DNA of 64,000 nucleotides from Meiothermus rufus DSM 22234. GTDB taxonomy: Bacteria > Deinococcota > Deinococci > Deinococcales > Thermaceae. A program made the position numbers and the translations under genes. This document shows positions 1,912 through 32,988 of the stretch, one piece after another. Numbering within the stretch: the first letter of the stretch is position 1; every line of letters begins with the position of its first letter. Under the pieces are notes generated by a model. That model was not told the origin of the DNA. It was given only the letters and a program-made list of their open reading frames with translations, and did not search any database. The stretch is from positions 1 through 64,000 of the forward strand of contig NZ_AUHY01000010.1 in assembly GCF_000423425.1 (NCBI RefSeq), read 5' to 3'.

Positions 1912-4443
1912 GTGGAACAACCCTCGCTGTTCGCTGAAGATAGCCCTCCCTCTAGCCCAACCCGACCAGAGCGTATCTGGCTGGTAGATGGGCATCACCT
2001 GGCCTACCGCAGCTATTTCGCCTTTGAAAGGCTCAGCACCTCCCGGGGCGAGCCTACCCAGGCTATTTATGGCTTTTTGCGCACGCTGCTCAAGCTGCTC
2101 AGGGAGGACGGCGACTGCGTACTGGTCGTTTTCGATGCTGCGGCCCCTACCTTTCGCCACGATGCCTACCAGGACTATAAGGCCGGGCGGGCCCCTACCC
2201 CCGAGGACTTCTACCCCCAGTTGGCCCAGATCAAAAGCCTGGTTGAACGGATGGGCCTTATCCGCCTCGAGGTAGCGGGCTACGAGGCCGACGACGTGAT
2301 CGGCACCCTAGCCAAAAAAGCTGAGCAGGAGGGGTACCCGGTGCGCATCCTCACCGGTGACCGGGATAGTTTCCAGCTCCTTTCCCCTTTGGTGCAGGTG
2401 ATGCTGCCGGATGGCCGCCTGATGACCCCTGAGGCGGTGCGGGAGCGCTATGGGGTGGAGGTGGCCCAGTGGGTGGACTACCGCGCCCTGGTAGGCGATC
2501 CCTCCGACAACCTGCCTGGGGCTAAAGGCATCGGCGAGAAGACCGCGGCCAAGCTGTTGCAGACCTGGGGTTCATTGGAGGGGCTGTACGCCCATCTCGA
2601 GGCCCTTCCCCCCAAGGTGCGCACCTCCTTGTTGGAAAGCCGCGAGCAGGTCGAGCTTTCCCGCCGGCTTTCCCAGATTCACACCGAGGTGCCTTTGGAG
2701 ATAGACTTTCGCCACTGCCACCGTCGCGAGCCCGACCGGCTGGCTTTGCGGGAGGCTTTGGAGCGGCTCGAGTTCGGTTCGATTCTGCGGGAGATGAACC
2801 TGCTGGCCGCCCCCACCCCGGCTCAGGAGGCGGCCTGGCCCCCTCCAGCAGAGGCGTTTTTGGGCTTCACCTTTGACCGGCCCCAACCCATGTGGGCCCA
2901 GTGGTTGGGTCTGGCGGCCTGCACCGGCGACCGGGTGTACCGCGGCCAGCCCATGCCTGGCGAGCTGCTGCACTTTCCCGAGCTGCGCGGCATCCAGGCC
3001 AAGGACCTCTCCGTGCTGGCGCTGCGCGAGGGGGTCTGGGTGCCCCCTGGCGACGATCCTCTGCTGCTGGCCTACCTCTACGACCCCTCCAACACCGACC
3101 CGGCCAGTACAGTGCGGCGCTACGGGGCGGGCGACTGGACCCCCGACCCCCTCGAGCGGGCCCAGGCCACCTACACCCTGTGGAAGACCCTGCAGGCCCG
3201 CATCCCGGAGAACCCTCGCATCGAATGGCTCTACCAGGAGATGGAGAAACCCCTTTCGGCGGTGCTGGCCCGTATGGAGGCTCGGGGCATCACCCTGGAT
3301 ACCGCCTACCTCATCCAGCTTTCCGAAGAGCTGGGTAAGGAGATTTCTTACCTCGAGGCCCAGGTTCACCGGCTGGCCGGCCATCCGTTCAACCTGAACT
3401 CGCGCGACCAGCTCGAGGTGGTACTCTACGATGAACTCAAGCTTTCCGCCTCGGGCCGCAAAACACAGAAGACCGGTAAGCGCTCCACCGCGGCCAGCGC
3501 CCTGGAGGAGCTTCTAGGTCAGCATGAGATTGTGGAGCGCATCCTAGCCTACCGCGAGCTGAGCAAGCTCAAGAGCACCTACCTCGACCCCCTGCCCCGC
3601 CTAATCCACCCCAAAACCGGTCGGTTGCACACCCGCTTTAATCAAACCGGTACCGCCACCGGGCGGCTTTCCTCCCTCGAGCCCAACCTGCAAAATATCC
3701 CTGTCCGCACCGAGATAGGCCGCCGCATCCGCAAGGCCTTCCGCGCCGCAGCAGGCATGAAACTGGTGGTGGCCGACTACTCCCAGATCGAGCTCAGGGT
3801 GCTGGCCCACCTTTCCGGCGATGAAAACCTCATCCAGGTTTTCCGCCAGGGCCGCGACATCCACACCCAGACCGCAGCCTGGATGTTTGGCCTTTCCCCC
3901 GAGCAAGTGGGCCCCACCCAGCGCCGCGCGGCTAAAACCATCAACTTTGGCGTGCTTTACGGCATGTCAGCCCATCGCCTATCCAACGAGCTTTCCATCC
4001 CCTACGCCGAGGCCGAAGGCTTTATTGAGCGCTACTTTGCCTCCTATCCCAAGGTGCGTGCCTGGATTGAGGGGGTGCTGGCCCAGGCGCGAGAGCGGGG
4101 GTATGTAGAGACCCTGTTTGGCCGGCGGCGCTTCGTGGCCGATCTGGACTCGCGCATCCGCGCGGTGCGGGAGGCTGCCGAGCGTATGGCCTTCAATATG
4201 CCGGTGCAGGGTACCGCTGCCGATCTGATGAAGCTGGCCATGGTTCGCTTGCAGCCCGAACTCGAGCCTTTGGGGGCTCACCTAGTGCTCCAGGTTCACG
4301 ACGAGCTTTTGGTGGAAGCCCCAGCGGAGCAAGCCCCTCAGGTGGCCCGGGTGATGCAGGAGGTCATGCGGGGTGTCTGGCCGCTGCTGGTGCCCCTCGA
4401 GGTCGAGGTGGGTATAGGGGAGGACTGGCTGGAGGCCAAGTGA
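1912..4443 (+). CDS. polA: DNA polymerase I (family A, Taq-like)
   Basis: Replication/repair polymerase of 843 aa (Taq is 832). Residues ~25-310 form the 5' nuclease with the acidic motifs DGHHLAYR, VVFDAAAPTFRHD, EADDVIGTL and GDPSDNLPG. The middle region (~320-440) matches the vestigial proofreading domain of Taq: the exo-I DxE motif is replaced by GFTFDRP, so no 3'-5' exonuclease is expected. Polymerase motifs are intact: motif A DYSQIELR (~622), O-helix RRAAKTINFGVLYG (~673, with the Phe that disfavours dideoxynucleotides) and motif C VHDE (~796). GTG 1912 is chosen as start because no in-frame ATG precedes the first nuclease motif and a -10 box lies 6 nt upstream. The N-terminus is about 10 residues longer than Taq. 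Confidence 0.97.
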   Translation: MEQPSLFAEDSPPSSPTRPERIWLVDGHHLAYRSYFAFERLSTSRGEPTQAIYGFLRTLLKLLREDGDCVLVVFDAAAPTFRHDAYQDYKAGRAPTPEDFYPQLAQIKSLVERMGLIRLEVAGYEADDVIGTLAKKAEQEGYPVRILTGDRDSFQLLSPLVQVMLPDGRLMTPEAVRERYGVEVAQWVDYRALVGDPSDNLPGAKGIGEKTAAKLLQTWGSLEGLYAHLEALPPKVRTSLLESREQVELSRRLSQIHTEVPLEIDFRHCHRREPDRLALREALERLEFGSILREMNLLAAPTPAQEAAWPPPAEAFLGFTFDRPQPMWAQWLGLAACTGDRVYRGQPMPGELLHFPELRGIQAKDLSVLALREGVWVPPGDDPLLLAYLYDPSNTDPASTVRRYGAGDWTPDPLERAQATYTLWKTLQARIPENPRIEWLYQEMEKPLSAVLARMEARGITLDTAYLIQLSEELGKEISYLEAQVHRLAGHPFNLNSRDQLEVVLYDELKLSASGRKTQKTGKRSTAASALEELLGQHEIVERILAYRELSKLKSTYLDPLPRLIHPKTGRLHTRFNQTGTATGRLSSLEPNLQNIPVRTEIGRRIRKAFRAAAGMKLVVADYSQIELRVLAHLSGDENLIQVFRQGRDIHTQTAAWMFGLSPEQVGPTQRRAAKTINFGVLYGMSAHRLSNELSIPYAEAEGFIERYFASYPKVRAWIEGVLAQARERGYVETLFGRRRFVADLDSRIRAVREAAERMAFNMPVQGTAADLMKLAMVRLQPELEPLGAHLVLQVHDELLVEAPAEQAPQVARVMQEVMRGVWPLLVPLEVEVGIGEDWLEAK

Positions 4444-27940: not shown

Positions 27941-27987
27941 CCCACACTGGGCTCGAGGGCGGTTTGAGCCAAATTCTGGAGGAGCTT

Positions 27988-30900
27988 ATGCAGCACTTTA
28001 CCCCTGCGGTTTTCGACGAGCACGCCCAGGCTATCGCCAAGCGCCAGTACATGCAGCCGGGAGATGGGGACGTATGCGGGATGTTCCGGCGGGTGGCGGC
28101 CTGGGTGGCCTCGGCGGAAAAATCCGAGCAGGATAAACAATATTGGGCGGAGCAGTTCTACCAGCTCATGGCCTCCAAGCGCTTTTGCCCGGGGGGACGG
28201 GTGCTGGCCGGGGCGGGTACCCAGCACGGCAACGTGCTGAATTGCTTCGTGCAGGGGGCTACCGAGCACGACCCCAGCAGCTTCGACGGGGTGATGGAGG
28301 TGGCCACCAAACTGGCCCTGGTCACCAAGGTTGGCGGGGGCAACGGGGTTAACCTCGACCCCTATGTCTCCCGCAAACAGGCTGGCCCTCGCCGTACGGT
28401 GCGTGGCTTTGCCTATATATCGGCGGAACACCCCGATGTAGAAGACTTCATCCAGGGGCTAATGCGCCCCCCCATCAACCCCGATGGCGAAAAAGAACCG
28501 ATCACGGTGCGTAACTGGACCCGGGTGGTCTACGGCCTTTTGAAGCCCGAGCTGGCCGCTTTGGCCCGCCGTCATGGGGTGTTGAGCGTGCGGGAGAAGC
28601 CGAGCGATGTATTGCCGGTGCCCGACGATATGCGGGGCATTGTCGAAGCGGCCAAAGCAGCGCTTGCCTTGGCGATAAAGGGCCAGGAGCCTCACGTAGA
28701 CTTCAGCAGCCTGCGCCCTGAGGGAGCCCCAATCAAGGGTAGCGGAGGCACCAGCAGCGGCCCGGTGAGCTTCCTGGTGGAGATTTTCGATAACTTTTTG
28801 GAATGGGCCAACCTGGGGGCAGAAAAGTCCGGCCCGGTGGCCACTTTGCGCTATGTGTATGCGCCGGTGCTGCGGGTGGTGAGGCAGGGAGGCACCCGCA
28901 GGGGCGCAGGCATGGCCACCCTGGCCATCGACCACCCCGACCTGCTGGACTTCCTCACCGCCAAGGACCTCGACCGCGAGGCCAGCGAAGGTGACATCTC
29001 TACCTTCAACATCTCCATTCTGGTCAGCGATGCCTTCTGGAGCGCGTTGCAGGCCGATGGGCTGTGGCCCCTCGAGCCTACCGAGGTGCCGGGGAAGTAC
29101 TACCCCTACCCCTTGCCGGGCACCTACCAGGGGGTGTTACCCGACCTGCCCGAGCGCCCGCAGGATGGCGCCCGGCCCATCCCCCTCTACCAGGGCAAGG
29201 TACCAGCCCGCTGGCTCTGGCACGAGATCGCCTGGCACGCCTGGGCTACTGGCGAGCCGGGCCTAATCTTCATCGACCGGGTCAACCAGCTTTCCGCCCT
29301 GAAGAACCTGGGCAAGCAGTACGAGATTCGCTCGACCAACCCCTGCTTTGTGGGCGGTACCCGCATTGCTACTGAGTTTGGTCTTTTGCCCATCGAGCAG
29401 CTTACGGATAAGGGCAGCTTCTACCTTGTTACCGACAACCGCGCGCCTTTGGGTGGGGTAGGTGCGGCCCGGCTTGGGCGCGGGGTGACGGTGCGCAAAG
29501 CAGCCAAGGCCTTCTATACCGGGGAGCGGGAGGTGGTGCGCCTCGAGACCCGCGAGGGCCTCACCCTCACCCTGACCCCCAACCACCCCCTCCTGACCCC
29601 CCAAGGGTACGTGGAGGCCGGCCAGCTGAAGCCTGGAGACAAATTGCTGGTGCAGAGCGGTGAGGGGTTGTGGGCCAAGGAGCAGGCCCTGCCGCCTGCC
29701 GTGCTGAAGGTGGTGCGCGAGCGGGTCGCGGTGGCTGGAGGAAAGGGCACCCGCGGAAGGTTTGATGTGCGCGAGCAGTACGCCCATATGCCTACCCAGT
29801 GGAGCGAGAACCTGGGCCTGGTGCTGGGCTGGCTGATCGGCGACGGGTACCTGCGCGAGGACGGGGTGGGCTTCTTCTTCAACAACCGCGAACTTGCCCA
29901 GGCCCAGATCGTGGTGGACAGCCTGCGCGACTGGTTCGGCCAGGGAACCCTGCAAGCCACGACCTCCAACACCCATCATCTGCACTTCAACAAGCTGCCG
30001 GCGGAGTTCTTCACAGCCCTCGGCGTCAAATCGGTCAGGGCCAGCGAGAAGCGGGTTCCGGAAAGCCTCTTCACCGCGCCCCGCGAGGCGGTGGTAGGCT
30101 TTTTGCGCGGGCTGTTCAGCACCGATGGCACCGTGGAGCGCAACGACGCCAAGCGGAGCTGCACCGTGCAGCTGGCCTCCTCGAGCCTTGGGCTGCTCCA
30201 GGACGTGCAACTGCTGCTGCTCAACTTCGGCATTTTCGGGCGGATCTACCACCGCCGGGAGGCGGGTCTCAAGGCCCTGCCCGATGGTCGGGGTGGGCTG
30301 CGCGAGTACCCTGTGGCCGAGCAGTACGAGCTGATCATCGGTGCCGAGAGCCGCGACCGCTTTGCCGAGGTCATCGGTTTTGCCCTGCCCGAGAAACAGG
30401 CTAAGCTCGAGGAATTCATCGGTAGCCGCAGCCGGGGGGCCTACCGCCAGCGCTTCGAGGTTACGGTAAGCCGGGTGGAGCCCGCCGGGGTGGCCCCTGT
30501 GTACGACCTGACCGAGCCTGTCACCCATAGCCTGATCGCGGGCGGTGTGGTGGCCCACAACTGCGGCGAAATCCCCCTCACTGTGGGCGAGCCTTGCGAC
30601 CTGGGGGCTTTGAACCTGGCGGCCTATGTCGAAAACGGCCAGTTCAACTTCGAAGCCTTCCGCCGGGATGTGCGTACGGCGGTGCGCTTCCTCGACGATG
30701 TGCTGGATGTCAATGTCTTTGCCCTCGAGGACAACCGCCAAGCCAGCCAGACCCTGCGCCGGCTGGGCCTGGGGGTGATGGGCCTGGCCGATATGCTCAT
30801 CAAGATGGGCCTGCCCTACTCCTCCGAGGCGGCCCGGCAGGTGGTGGCCGAGGTAATGGGCGTGCTGCGCCAAGAGGCCATCGCGGCTTCCGAGCAACTA

Positions 30901-32112
30901 GGCCAGGAGCGGGGGGTGTTTCCCCTCTACCAGCAACGCCCCGAGGCTTTCGAGGCCCTGGGTATCCGCCCACGCCGCAATGTGGCGGTGCTGACCGTGG
31001 CCCCTACAGGCACCACCAGCATGCTGATGGGCGTCAGCAGCGGCATTGAGCCGGTCTACTCCCCCTTTATGTGGCGGCGCATTGGGGGGCAGTACAAGGC
31101 TTTGCTGCACCCTCTGTTCGTGGAGATGATGCAGCAGTACCCCCCCTCGGGCCGCTTCGAGAAGAACGGGGCCTGGGACTGGGAGGCCATCATCGAGGCC
31201 ATCCAGGCCAACCACGGTAGCCTGAAGGGGTTGGAGGGTATCCCTCCGGCCATCGCCAACGTGTTTGAAGGGGCCCACGATGTGCCCCCCTTGGATCACG
31301 TGCGGATGCAGGGGGTGGTGCAGACCGCCTTCGACGCTGAAGGCTATGCGGCCAACTCCCTTTCCAAAACCATCAACCTGCCCAACCAAGCCACTGTGGA
31401 GGACGTGGAGGCAGCCTATACCGAGGCCTTCCGCACGGGCTGCAAGGGCATCACGGTCTACCGCGACGGCAGCCGCGAGTTCCAGGTGCTCTCGGTGAGC
31501 AAGGAGAAAAAGGAAAACAAGAGCGAAGAAACCGTGGTGCAGCCGGCCTTGTTGGAAGTACCCCCCAGTCAGGACGCCCCCACCGCCCGCCCGGTTTTCG
31601 AGCGCACGGGCCGTTTGGTGGGGTATACCGATATGGTCAAGCTCACCAACAGCGACGGTACCCGGCGCAGCTTCCTGGTGACGGTCAATATGCAAGGCGA
31701 CTATCCCATCGAGGTCATCCTCACCTCGGGCAAAGCTGGCGATGAAGCCAATGCCGACAGCGAAGCCCTGGGCCGGGTTATCTCCATTGCTTTGCAGTAT
31801 GGTGTGCCCGCCGAAGCGCTGGTCAAGACCCTGCGCGGCATCAATGGTGGGCTATACGGTAGCTACCAGGGCCGCTTCGTTACCAGCAAAGCCGACCTGA
31901 TCGCGGTGGCCCTGGAGACCACCAGCAAGGTGCAGGCTAGCCAAACCGAACCGCAGGCCCCGGTGGTGCCCCAGGCCATGCAGCGGGCCATGACCGCCCC
32001 CCTCCGGCCCTCCACCGGCCTGGGCCGCTGCCCCGAGTGTGGCGAAGAGAGCCTGGCGCGCGAGGAGGGGTGTTTGAAGTGCTATAGCTGCGGCTATAGC
32101 AAGTGCGGCTAG
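27988..32112 (+). CDS. nrdJ: Class II (B12-dependent) ribonucleotide reductase with an intein
   Basis: Reduces ribonucleotides with adenosylcobalamin, so needs no oxygen-dependent second subunit. The reading frame is 1374 codons from ATG 27988 (GGAGG 7 nt upstream, better than the upstream TTG). Removing the 406-residue intein leaves about 968 aa. Visible extein motifs: CPGGRVLAGAG and NVLNCFVQG (~70-90), KVGGGNGVNLDP (~115), GGTRRGAGMATL (~300), the rejoined NPCGE active-site motif at the intein junction, and the dimer/thiyl segment ending APTGTTSMLMGVSSGIEPV. The C-terminus carries a TSCPD domain (~1210-1310) and a zinc ribbon with Cys pairs (CPECGEE, CLKCYSCGYSKCG) that supply the reducing thiols. 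A stem-loop terminator follows. Confidence 0.95.
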   Translation: MQHFTPAVFDEHAQAIAKRQYMQPGDGDVCGMFRRVAAWVASAEKSEQDKQYWAEQFYQLMASKRFCPGGRVLAGAGTQHGNVLNCFVQGATEHDPSSFDGVMEVATKLALVTKVGGGNGVNLDPYVSRKQAGPRRTVRGFAYISAEHPDVEDFIQGLMRPPINPDGEKEPITVRNWTRVVYGLLKPELAALARRHGVLSVREKPSDVLPVPDDMRGIVEAAKAALALAIKGQEPHVDFSSLRPEGAPIKGSGGTSSGPVSFLVEIFDNFLEWANLGAEKSGPVATLRYVYAPVLRVVRQGGTRRGAGMATLAIDHPDLLDFLTAKDLDREASEGDISTFNISILVSDAFWSALQADGLWPLEPTEVPGKYYPYPLPGTYQGVLPDLPERPQDGARPIPLYQGKVPARWLWHEIAWHAWATGEPGLIFIDRVNQLSALKNLGKQYEIRSTNPCFVGGTRIATEFGLLPIEQLTDKGSFYLVTDNRAPLGGVGAARLGRGVTVRKAAKAFYTGEREVVRLETREGLTLTLTPNHPLLTPQGYVEAGQLKPGDKLLVQSGEGLWAKEQALPPAVLKVVRERVAVAGGKGTRGRFDVREQYAHMPTQWSENLGLVLGWLIGDGYLREDGVGFFFNNRELAQAQIVVDSLRDWFGQGTLQATTSNTHHLHFNKLPAEFFTALGVKSVRASEKRVPESLFTAPREAVVGFLRGLFSTDGTVERNDAKRSCTVQLASSSLGLLQDVQLLLLNFGIFGRIYHRREAGLKALPDGRGGLREYPVAEQYELIIGAESRDRFAEVIGFALPEKQAKLEEFIGSRSRGAYRQRFEVTVSRVEPAGVAPVYDLTEPVTHSLIAGGVVAHNCGEIPLTVGEPCDLGALNLAAYVENGQFNFEAFRRDVRTAVRFLDDVLDVNVFALEDNRQASQTLRRLGLGVMGLADMLIKMGLPYSSEAARQVVAEVMGVLRQEAIAASEQLGQERGVFPLYQQRPEAFEALGIRPRRNVAVLTVAPTGTTSMLMGVSSGIEPVYSPFMWRRIGGQYKALLHPLFVEMMQQYPPSGRFEKNGAWDWEAIIEAIQANHGSLKGLEGIPPAIANVFEGAHDVPPLDHVRMQGVVQTAFDAEGYAANSLSKTINLPNQATVEDVEAAYTEAFRTGCKGITVYRDGSREFQVLSVSKEKKENKSEETVVQPALLEVPPSQDAPTARPVFERTGRLVGYTDMVKLTNSDGTRRSFLVTVNMQGDYPIEVILTSGKAGDEANADSEALGRVISIALQYGVPAEALVKTLRGINGGLYGSYQGRFVTSKADLIAVALETTSKVQASQTEPQAPVVPQAMQRAMTAPLRPSTGLGRCPECGEESLAREEGCLKCYSCGYSKCG
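29344..30561 (+). other. Intein with LAGLIDADG homing endonuclease inside nrdJ
   Basis: 406 codons in frame inside nrdJ. It begins with Cys1 (CFVGGTRIATEFGLLPIEQL, block A), has block B TLTPNHPLLTPQGY with His81, and ends VYDLTEPVTHSLIAGGVVAHN-type (blocks F and G), with penultimate His, terminal Asn406 and Cys as the +1 extein residue. All residues for standard splicing are present. The endonuclease has two LAGLIDADG blocks, LGWLIGDGYL (~161) and LRGLFSTDGTV (~254), each with its acidic residue, so it may still be active. It sits between Pro and the catalytic Cys of NPCGE, so the enzyme is dead until splicing. Confidence 0.95.
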
Positions 32113-32125
32113 CTTGGACAAGGGG

Positions 32126-32159
32126 CGGGGTGGGGTAGAGGCCCCACCCCGTTACTTTT
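32126..32159 (+). terminator. Terminator of nrdJ
   Basis: A perfect 10-bp stem CGGGGTGGGG/CCCCACCCCG (32126-32135 with 32142-32151), loop TAGAGG, is followed by TTACTTTT. It starts 13 nt after the nrdJ stop and separates it from the tRNA gene. Confidence 0.85.
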
Positions 32160-32194
32160 CGTCGCAAAACCATAGCCCCGCAAGGGGATTGCAA

Positions 32195-32271
32195 CTGCCG
32201 CTGGCGCAACCGGTGAGCGCACCCGGCTTATACCCGGGCGGTTCTGGGTTCGAGTCCCAGGCGGCAGACCA
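32195..32271 (+). tRNA. tRNA with anticodon UAU (predicted tRNA-Ile reading AUA)
   Basis: A 77-nt cloverleaf with CCA encoded. Acceptor CTGCCGC pairs perfectly with GCGGCAG; U8; D stem GCGC/GCGC with GG in the loop; anticodon stem CCCGG/CCGGG with loop CTTATAC; variable loop CGGTT; T arm CTGGG-TTCGAGT-CCCAG; discriminator A and CCA. With U33 at 32228 the anticodon is TAT (32229-32231). Most bacteria read AUA with a CAU tRNA modified to lysidine, so a UAU tRNA-Ile is unusual. C1-G72 and C38 are also not typical of tRNA-Ile, so the charged amino acid is inferred from the anticodon only. Confidence 0.85.
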
Positions 32272-32284
32272 GGGCAAAAAACCA

Positions 32285-32306
32285 GGCCGGGTATTCCCCG
32301 GCCTTT
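32285..32306. terminator. Shared terminator between the tRNA and sodA
   Basis: GGCCGGG (32285-32291) pairs with CCCGGCC (32297-32303). On the minus strand, after sodA, TTTTTT follows within 3 nt; on the plus strand only TTT follows. It therefore mainly ends sodA transcripts and more weakly those of the tRNA. Confidence 0.7.
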
Positions 32307-32322
32307 GTGCAAGCCACCTGCT

Positions 32323-32928
32323 TTAGAATCGGCTGGCCACTTTGTCCCAGTTAATCACGTTCCAGATGGCCGCCAGGTAGTCGGGGCGGCGGTTTTGATA
32401 CTTGAGGTAGTAGGCGTGTTCCCACACATCAATGCCCAGCAGGGGGGTGTGGCCTTCCATTAGGGGGGAGTCCTGATTGGCGGTGCTGTAGACGTGCAGC
32501 TTGCCGTCTTTGTCCTTGACCAGCCAGGCCCAGCCCGAGCCAAAGCGGGTAGCCCCAGCCTGGGTCAGCTTGGCCTTGAGTTCCTCGAAGGAGCCAAAGG
32601 TAGCGTTGATGGCCTCGGCTAGTTTGCCGCTAGGCTCCTTGGCCCCGCCGGGGGTGAGGATGTCCCAGAAGAGGGTGTGGTTGTGGTGGCCCCCGCCATT
32701 GTTGCGCACTGCCGTGCGGATGTCCTCGGGTACCTGGTCGATTTTGCCCAGGAGTTCCTCGAGGCTCCAGCCATGCAGCTCGGGGTGTTTTTCCAGCGCG
32801 GCGTTGAGGTTGTTCACGTAGGCCGCGTGGTGCTTGCCGTGGTGGATTTCCATGGTCAGGGCGTCAATATGGGGCTCGAGGGCATCCTTGGGATAGGGCA
32901 GGTCGGGTAGCTTGAATGGATAACTCAT
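32323..32928 (-). CDS. sodA: Superoxide dismutase (Mn type)
   Basis: Converts superoxide to peroxide and oxygen. It is 201 aa from ATG 32928, preceded by GGAGGTG. It closely resembles the T. thermophilus Mn[23 protein letters not shown] at the N-terminus, first ligand in [12 protein letters not shown] (~27), second in [14 protein letters not shown] (~82), and Asp/His in [17 protein letters not shown] (~163-168). The Gly/Gln residues ([17 protein letters not shown]) favour Mn. It lies 60 nt downstream of fumC on the same strand and could be co-transcribed. Confidence 0.97.
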
Positions 32929-32988
32929 GCGTTCACCTCCGTGCTGTACTCTACGCTCCTTTATCCGGCGCACGCTGTGATGGAAGAC

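Follow-up and report, generated by a model that had tools for sequence, protein, structure and literature searches.

A redundant tRNA-Ile(UAU) gene, probably of phage type, at an eroded CRISPR relic in Meiothermus rufus DSM 22234

We describe a tRNA gene with a UAU anticodon in Meiothermus rufus DSM 22234 that starts on the final base of a solitary CRISPR repeat, in a genome that keeps the usual lysidine route for AUA. With moderate confidence, we explain it as a redundant tRNA-Ile(UAU), horizontally acquired and probably phage-type, located at an eroded CRISPR relic between nrdJ and sodA. A redundant UAU tRNA is of a known kind, and the CRISPR-relic setting is the more surprising part. The anticodon by itself reveals no change in AUA decoding. 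Arrival of such a tRNA in a TilS-bearing bacterium could be the beginning of a replacement of the lysidine system. The exact abutment of tRNA and CRISPR repeat is a peculiar scar in the genome, perhaps left where foreign DNA came in.

The UAU tRNA gene and native decoding of AUA

The window analyzed here is the first 64,000 nucleotides of contig NZ_AUHY01000010.1. ARAGORN finds a single tRNA in it, with anticodon TAT, and the locus is laid out as follows.

27964-32112, forward strand: nrdJ-type ribonucleotide reductase with an intein, the upstream neighbor
32124-32153, forward strand: intrinsic terminator-like hairpin after nrdJ (13 pairs; -29.9 kcal/mol, z -4.9)
32147-32160, forward strand: CRISPR leader stub CCCCGTTACTTTTC, corresponding to nt 1-14 of the 377-nt leader on contig C1
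32161-32195, forward strand: solitary 35-nt CRISPR repeat GTCGCAAAACCATAGCCCCGCAAGGGGATTGCAAC, its last C being tRNA position 1
32195-32271, forward strand: tRNA gene, anticodon UAU (AUA), with an intact cloverleaf and encoded CCA
32284-32304, reverse strand: terminator hairpin at the 3' end of sodA
32323-32973, reverse strand: sodA (Fe/Mn superoxide dismutase), the downstream neighbor

The gene scores 63.2 bits against the Rfam tRNA model, whose gathering score is 29, so the match is not due to chance. All four stems are fully paired: acceptor (CTGCCGC/GCGGCAG, 7/7), D (GCGC/GCGC, 4/4), anticodon (CCCGG/CCGGG, 5/5) and T (CTGGG/CCCAG, 5/5). The anticodon loop reads CUUAUAC (C32, U33, UAU, A37, C38), A73 precedes the encoded CCA, and the tertiary positions expected of a tRNA (U8, A14, G18, G19, T54-T55-C56 and A58) are all kept. 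The well-formed tRNA proposed from the letters of the DNA is thus borne out, and the C1-G72 pair and C38 noted at that time are confirmed in the sequence. Their description as odd for tRNA-Ile holds for cellular tRNA-Ile, but both are met with in viral UAU tRNAs: of 61 distinct genes, 13 have C1-G72 and 7 have C38 (55 have A73). Among the isoleucine features of E. coli, the gene carries A37, C4-G69, C29-G41 and A73; it has C38 and G12-C23 where the Ile2 type has A38 and U12-A23. The view that such identity features leave charging open is supported, as is the predicted reading of AUA by the anticodon.

AUA is rare but used, as had been noticed, accounting for 37 of 777 isoleucine codons (4.8%) in 51 long, non-overlapping open reading frames of the window. 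Elsewhere in the genome are an intact tilS (C28:6121-6651; E 3e-49; open frame of 547 residues), one full-length IleRS, tRNA-Ile(GAU), an elongator Met tRNA (L032, beginning GGCTATG) and two initiator tRNAs. A further CAU tRNA (L041) has C4-G69, C5-G68, U12-A23, C29-G41, A38 and A73, and by these features and established knowledge it is assigned to the Ile2 type. Our list of native tRNAs is incomplete (Lys, Phe and Asp are missing) and was used to establish presence, never absence. Since tilS and the full set of Ile and Met tRNAs are present, the UAU tRNA, itself intact, is redundant. In Mycoplasma mobile a UAU tRNA replaces the lysidine route; tilS and the CAU Ile2 tRNA would then be absent, and both are found here. 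As judged from gene content, the native AUA system is complete and the UAU tRNA does not replace it. The sequence-only reading had implied a departure from the lysidine route, which does not hold: two of the three observations it named as speaking against itself, a lysidine-type CAU tRNA-Ile and tilS, are both made in this genome.

The nrdJ hairpin stands upstream of both repeat and tRNA, and a scan of positions 31900-32500 yielded no promoter-like site. By the same rule, 21 of the 34 other tRNA genes of the genome score within 130 bp; the rule is strict, and the genes that fail it include several native ones, some of them lying second in a cluster and others missing the mark narrowly. With a terminator upstream and no promoter-like site, expression of the UAU tRNA would need read-through, and we infer that expression is low or nil. 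AUA would be decoded by the normal route, with tRNA-Ile2(CAU) converted to LAU by TilS, and the UAU tRNA, having no promoter of its own, would be made only when transcription passes the nrdJ terminator. RNase P would then set the 5' end at C1, where the CRISPR repeat ends, A37 would receive t6A, IleRS would charge the product poorly or moderately, and the tRNA would serve as a minor supplement in AUA reading. Against this reading stand the intact stems and tertiary positions: a gene silent for long would have lost them, and either a recent arrival or some use is needed.

The foremost alternative goes further and makes the gene a working second AUA reader, expressed by nrdJ read-through, modified with t6A, charged by IleRS and sharing decoding with tRNA-Ile2(LAU). 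The flawless cloverleaf with its tertiary positions, the isoleucine features listed above, the use of AUA, the native-looking UAU tRNAs of a Thermus genome alongside Ile2 and TilS, and the redundant UAU/CAU tRNAs reported for lactic acid bacteria all speak for it. We nonetheless consider it unlikely, as the gene lacks a promoter and lies behind a strong terminator, has C38 and G12-C23 where A38 and U12-A23 are expected, and occurs in one genome only, whose native system is complete.

Origin of the tRNA

The UAU tRNA is present as a single copy in this genome, and a search of 17 further Meiothermus genomes did not find it. In the database, T5-like phages supply the closest matches, tRNA-Lys genes at 83.8% identity across 68 nt (E 1e-9) with an identical T arm, while matches within the phylum reach 48 bits at most. 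When 658 tRNAs were compared with the anticodon masked, the nearest were a viral Ile(UAU) tRNA at 0.77 identity and phage Lys at 0.76, ahead of the phylum's own Ile(GAU) and CAU tRNAs at 0.69-0.72. The viral UAU genes entered this comparison through a pattern that tilts the set towards similar T arms. Viral contigs are rich in UAU tRNAs: more than 100 stretches were found, and 77 were confirmed as tRNA-Ile(tat) in 80 loci. No close viral homologue was found in the viral sequences searched, and no phage genes are immediate neighbors of the window gene. Among GTDB contigs, the one pattern match lies in a tRNA cluster of a Bacteroidota MAG; this UAU tRNA is not close and was set aside. The cluster itself (L257, 3664-5778) comprises eight tRNAs, including the UAU tRNA, among short phage-like open reading frames. 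Spacers were also considered as a source, and none of 145 from arrays of the genus is tRNA-like or matches.

The affinity to lysine tRNAs raises the alternative that the gene is an anticodon-shifted tRNA with the body of a phage tRNA-Lys, charged with an amino acid other than isoleucine or with nothing. T5-like tRNA-Lys genes are the closest annotated matches, and in the masked comparison Lys tRNAs take ranks 2 and 3 (0.763 and 0.757) and have the second-highest mean identity. On the other side, the tRNA has neither U35 nor C34, the bases that LysRS and MetRS need, and viral UAU tRNAs are equally close, so that we regard this alternative as improbable. A phage-type source of a tRNA-Ile(UAU) is likely on these comparisons, and that origin, together with weak charging, is the form in which we hold the preferred reading. 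A cellular source is possible, since redundant UAU tRNAs also sit in Thermus chromosomes.

The CRISPR relic and the nrdJ-sodA junction

The setting of the tRNA had gone unnoticed in the sequence-only reading: C1 doubles as the final base of a perfect 35-nt CRISPR repeat. The repeat is identical (35/35) to copies at C1:46490-46524 and C30:15372-15406. On C1, a 377-nt leader is followed by this repeat, one spacer and a second repeat (C1:46563) with one mismatch; on C30, the leader and a single repeat adjoin tRNA-Leu(GAG). In other genomes of the genus this leader precedes long arrays of the repeat, with 2-5 mismatches to the window copy, and some of these arrays also adjoin that tRNA-Leu. By comparison, what this genome holds is the eroded remains of such arrays. 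The window repeat falls short of the gathering score of the Rfam model CRISPR-DR10 (39), with a weak match of 29.2 bits.

The 14-nt stub overlaps the tail of the nrdJ terminator and is matched by the C30 leader at 13 of 14 positions (CCTCGTTACTTTTC); the remaining 363 nt of the leader are gone from the window locus. In about 240 kb of this genome inspected, GTTACTTTT occurs only at the window stub and in the two leaders. The locus thus has a repeat identical or nearly so to those of leader-and-spacer arrays, and in place of the two or more repeats, spacer and leader of a CRISPR locus it has one repeat and 14 nt of leader. We therefore read repeat and stub, from their sequence, as the relic of a CRISPR locus and not as an array. 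Another eroded relic of the same genome, a degraded solitary repeat with the last leader bases, lies at L132:7151-7185 (G000:C3:33150).

A further alternative makes the abutting repeat functional, either in a repeat-tRNA transcript processed by Cas6 or as a solitary RNA anti-CRISPR (Racr) that arrived with a phage tRNA. Racrs are solitary repeats of viruses (PMC10651486). The 35/35 identity to the genome's own repeat, the exact abutment, the single transcript that repeat and tRNA would share and the cas loci of the genome (type I-C with III-B, and I-E) fit such a function. The leader stub, by contrast, marks the repeat as a remnant of a host CRISPR locus, eroded copies on C3 and C30 have no tRNA at the repeat end, no promoter is seen, and none of the viral contigs searched carries the repeat. 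We hold a functional repeat to be very improbable, and its boldest form, a natural fusion in which the repeat is a 5' processing or regulatory element and crRNA processing controls a spare AUA reader, to be less probable still.

The leader stub, repeat and tRNA occupy exactly the lineage-specific junction of nrdJ and sodA. Homology of the sodA region to relatives starts at about 32276, some 4 nt past the tRNA. In the relatives examined that have long contigs, the two genes are tens to hundreds of kilobases apart and never neighbors, and no homologous tRNA lies beside either gene in relatives. The locus may have been put together by recombination between scattered CRISPR copies or by capture of foreign DNA at a CRISPR locus. 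Insertion of a CRISPR-associated transposon beside a tRNA was rejected, there being no transposon gene among the adjacent genes. The intein of nrdJ has a LAGLIDADG endonuclease at residues of about 510-866. A misassembly of the 121-contig draft is scarcely credible as the origin of the junction: four copies of the 35-nt repeat and the separation of nrdJ and sodA in relatives speak for it, but stretches of 35 and 14 nt would hardly mislead an assembler, the contig extends over 65 kb with the junction in its interior, and the tRNA is joined to the sodA terminator with no intervening repeat.

UAU tRNAs of the phylum and known systems

A pattern search of 111 genomes of the phylum found UAU tRNAs in five others (G068, with two copies, G071, G073, G109 and G007). 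These are of another, Ile2-like type, with A38 and G1-U72 (G-C in G109). The two genes of G068 are identical (G068:C106, L283-L386; 1742437 and 1947377), with an Ile2-like body, and the same main contig of 2.07 Mb carries tilS and a CAU Ile2-type tRNA, so that the redundancy recurs in the family. In the Thermus-type genome G073 (C13; L271/L279), a native-looking tRNA-Ile(UAU) at L279:2342-2419 lies 34 nt upstream of tilS (2454-3968) and shares its strand, in an operon-like arrangement that puts the two alternative AUA-decoding routes side by side.

Ahead of three distinct UAU tRNA loci of the phylum is a short open reading frame with a conserved AA(A/G)CGAATACC, readable as Lys-Arg-Ile(AUA)-Pro (L267:1389; L270, complement; L271:1406; L273, complement, 1417). 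In L273 the frame is followed by a hairpin and a T run, and the frame is possibly an AUA-codon leader or attenuator. The motif is absent from the G068 main contig, the window and the other DNA of the M. rufus genome that was inspected. L267/L282 (G007:C155) and L270 (G071:C2), from genomes assigned to different genera, do not differ over some 490 nt surrounding the UAU tRNA; this suggests contamination of the G007 assembly or very recent transfer. The Thermus UAU tRNAs, one of them just upstream of tilS, may be better suited than the window gene to tests of how two routes coexist.

The window gene shares its phylum and anticodon with the Thermus-type UAU tRNAs of G068, G071, G073 and G109, for which redundancy with tilS and Ile2 is shown in G068, but those have G1-U72 (G-C in G109) and A38, are much closer to tRNA-Ile2 and in several cases stand behind a leader; at 0.69 identity the two are separate lineages. 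With viral tRNA-Ile(UAU), represented by the viral contigs and by one prophage case (PMC10688831), it has in common the anticodon, A73 and a similar body, with C1-G72 and C38 occasional in the viral genes, although it lies in a bacterial chromosome and has no close viral homologue among those found. The window repeat resembles a Racr (PMC10651486) in being single and outside an array; unlike a Racr, which sits behind a promoter in a viral or prophage genome, it has a host leader stub attached, no promoter and nrdJ and sodA as neighbors. The UAU anticodon for AUA is common to M. mobile, where the tRNA goes with an adapted IleRS (Taniguchi 2013, cited in PMC11938285); unlike M. mobile, M. rufus has tilS and Ile2. 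A close parallel in gene content is Lactobacillus plantarum, which, with other lactic acid bacteria, is reported to have tRNA-Ile(UAU) redundant beside tRNA-Ile2(CAU)/TilS (Tomikawa 2018 and Uesugi 2022, cited in PMC9976931 and PMC10688831). Here too tilS and the CAU tRNA have been retained alongside the UAU tRNA; it differs from the L. plantarum case in being unshared with relatives, in lacking a promoter-like site, and in having C1-G72, C38 and a CRISPR repeat abutting its first base.
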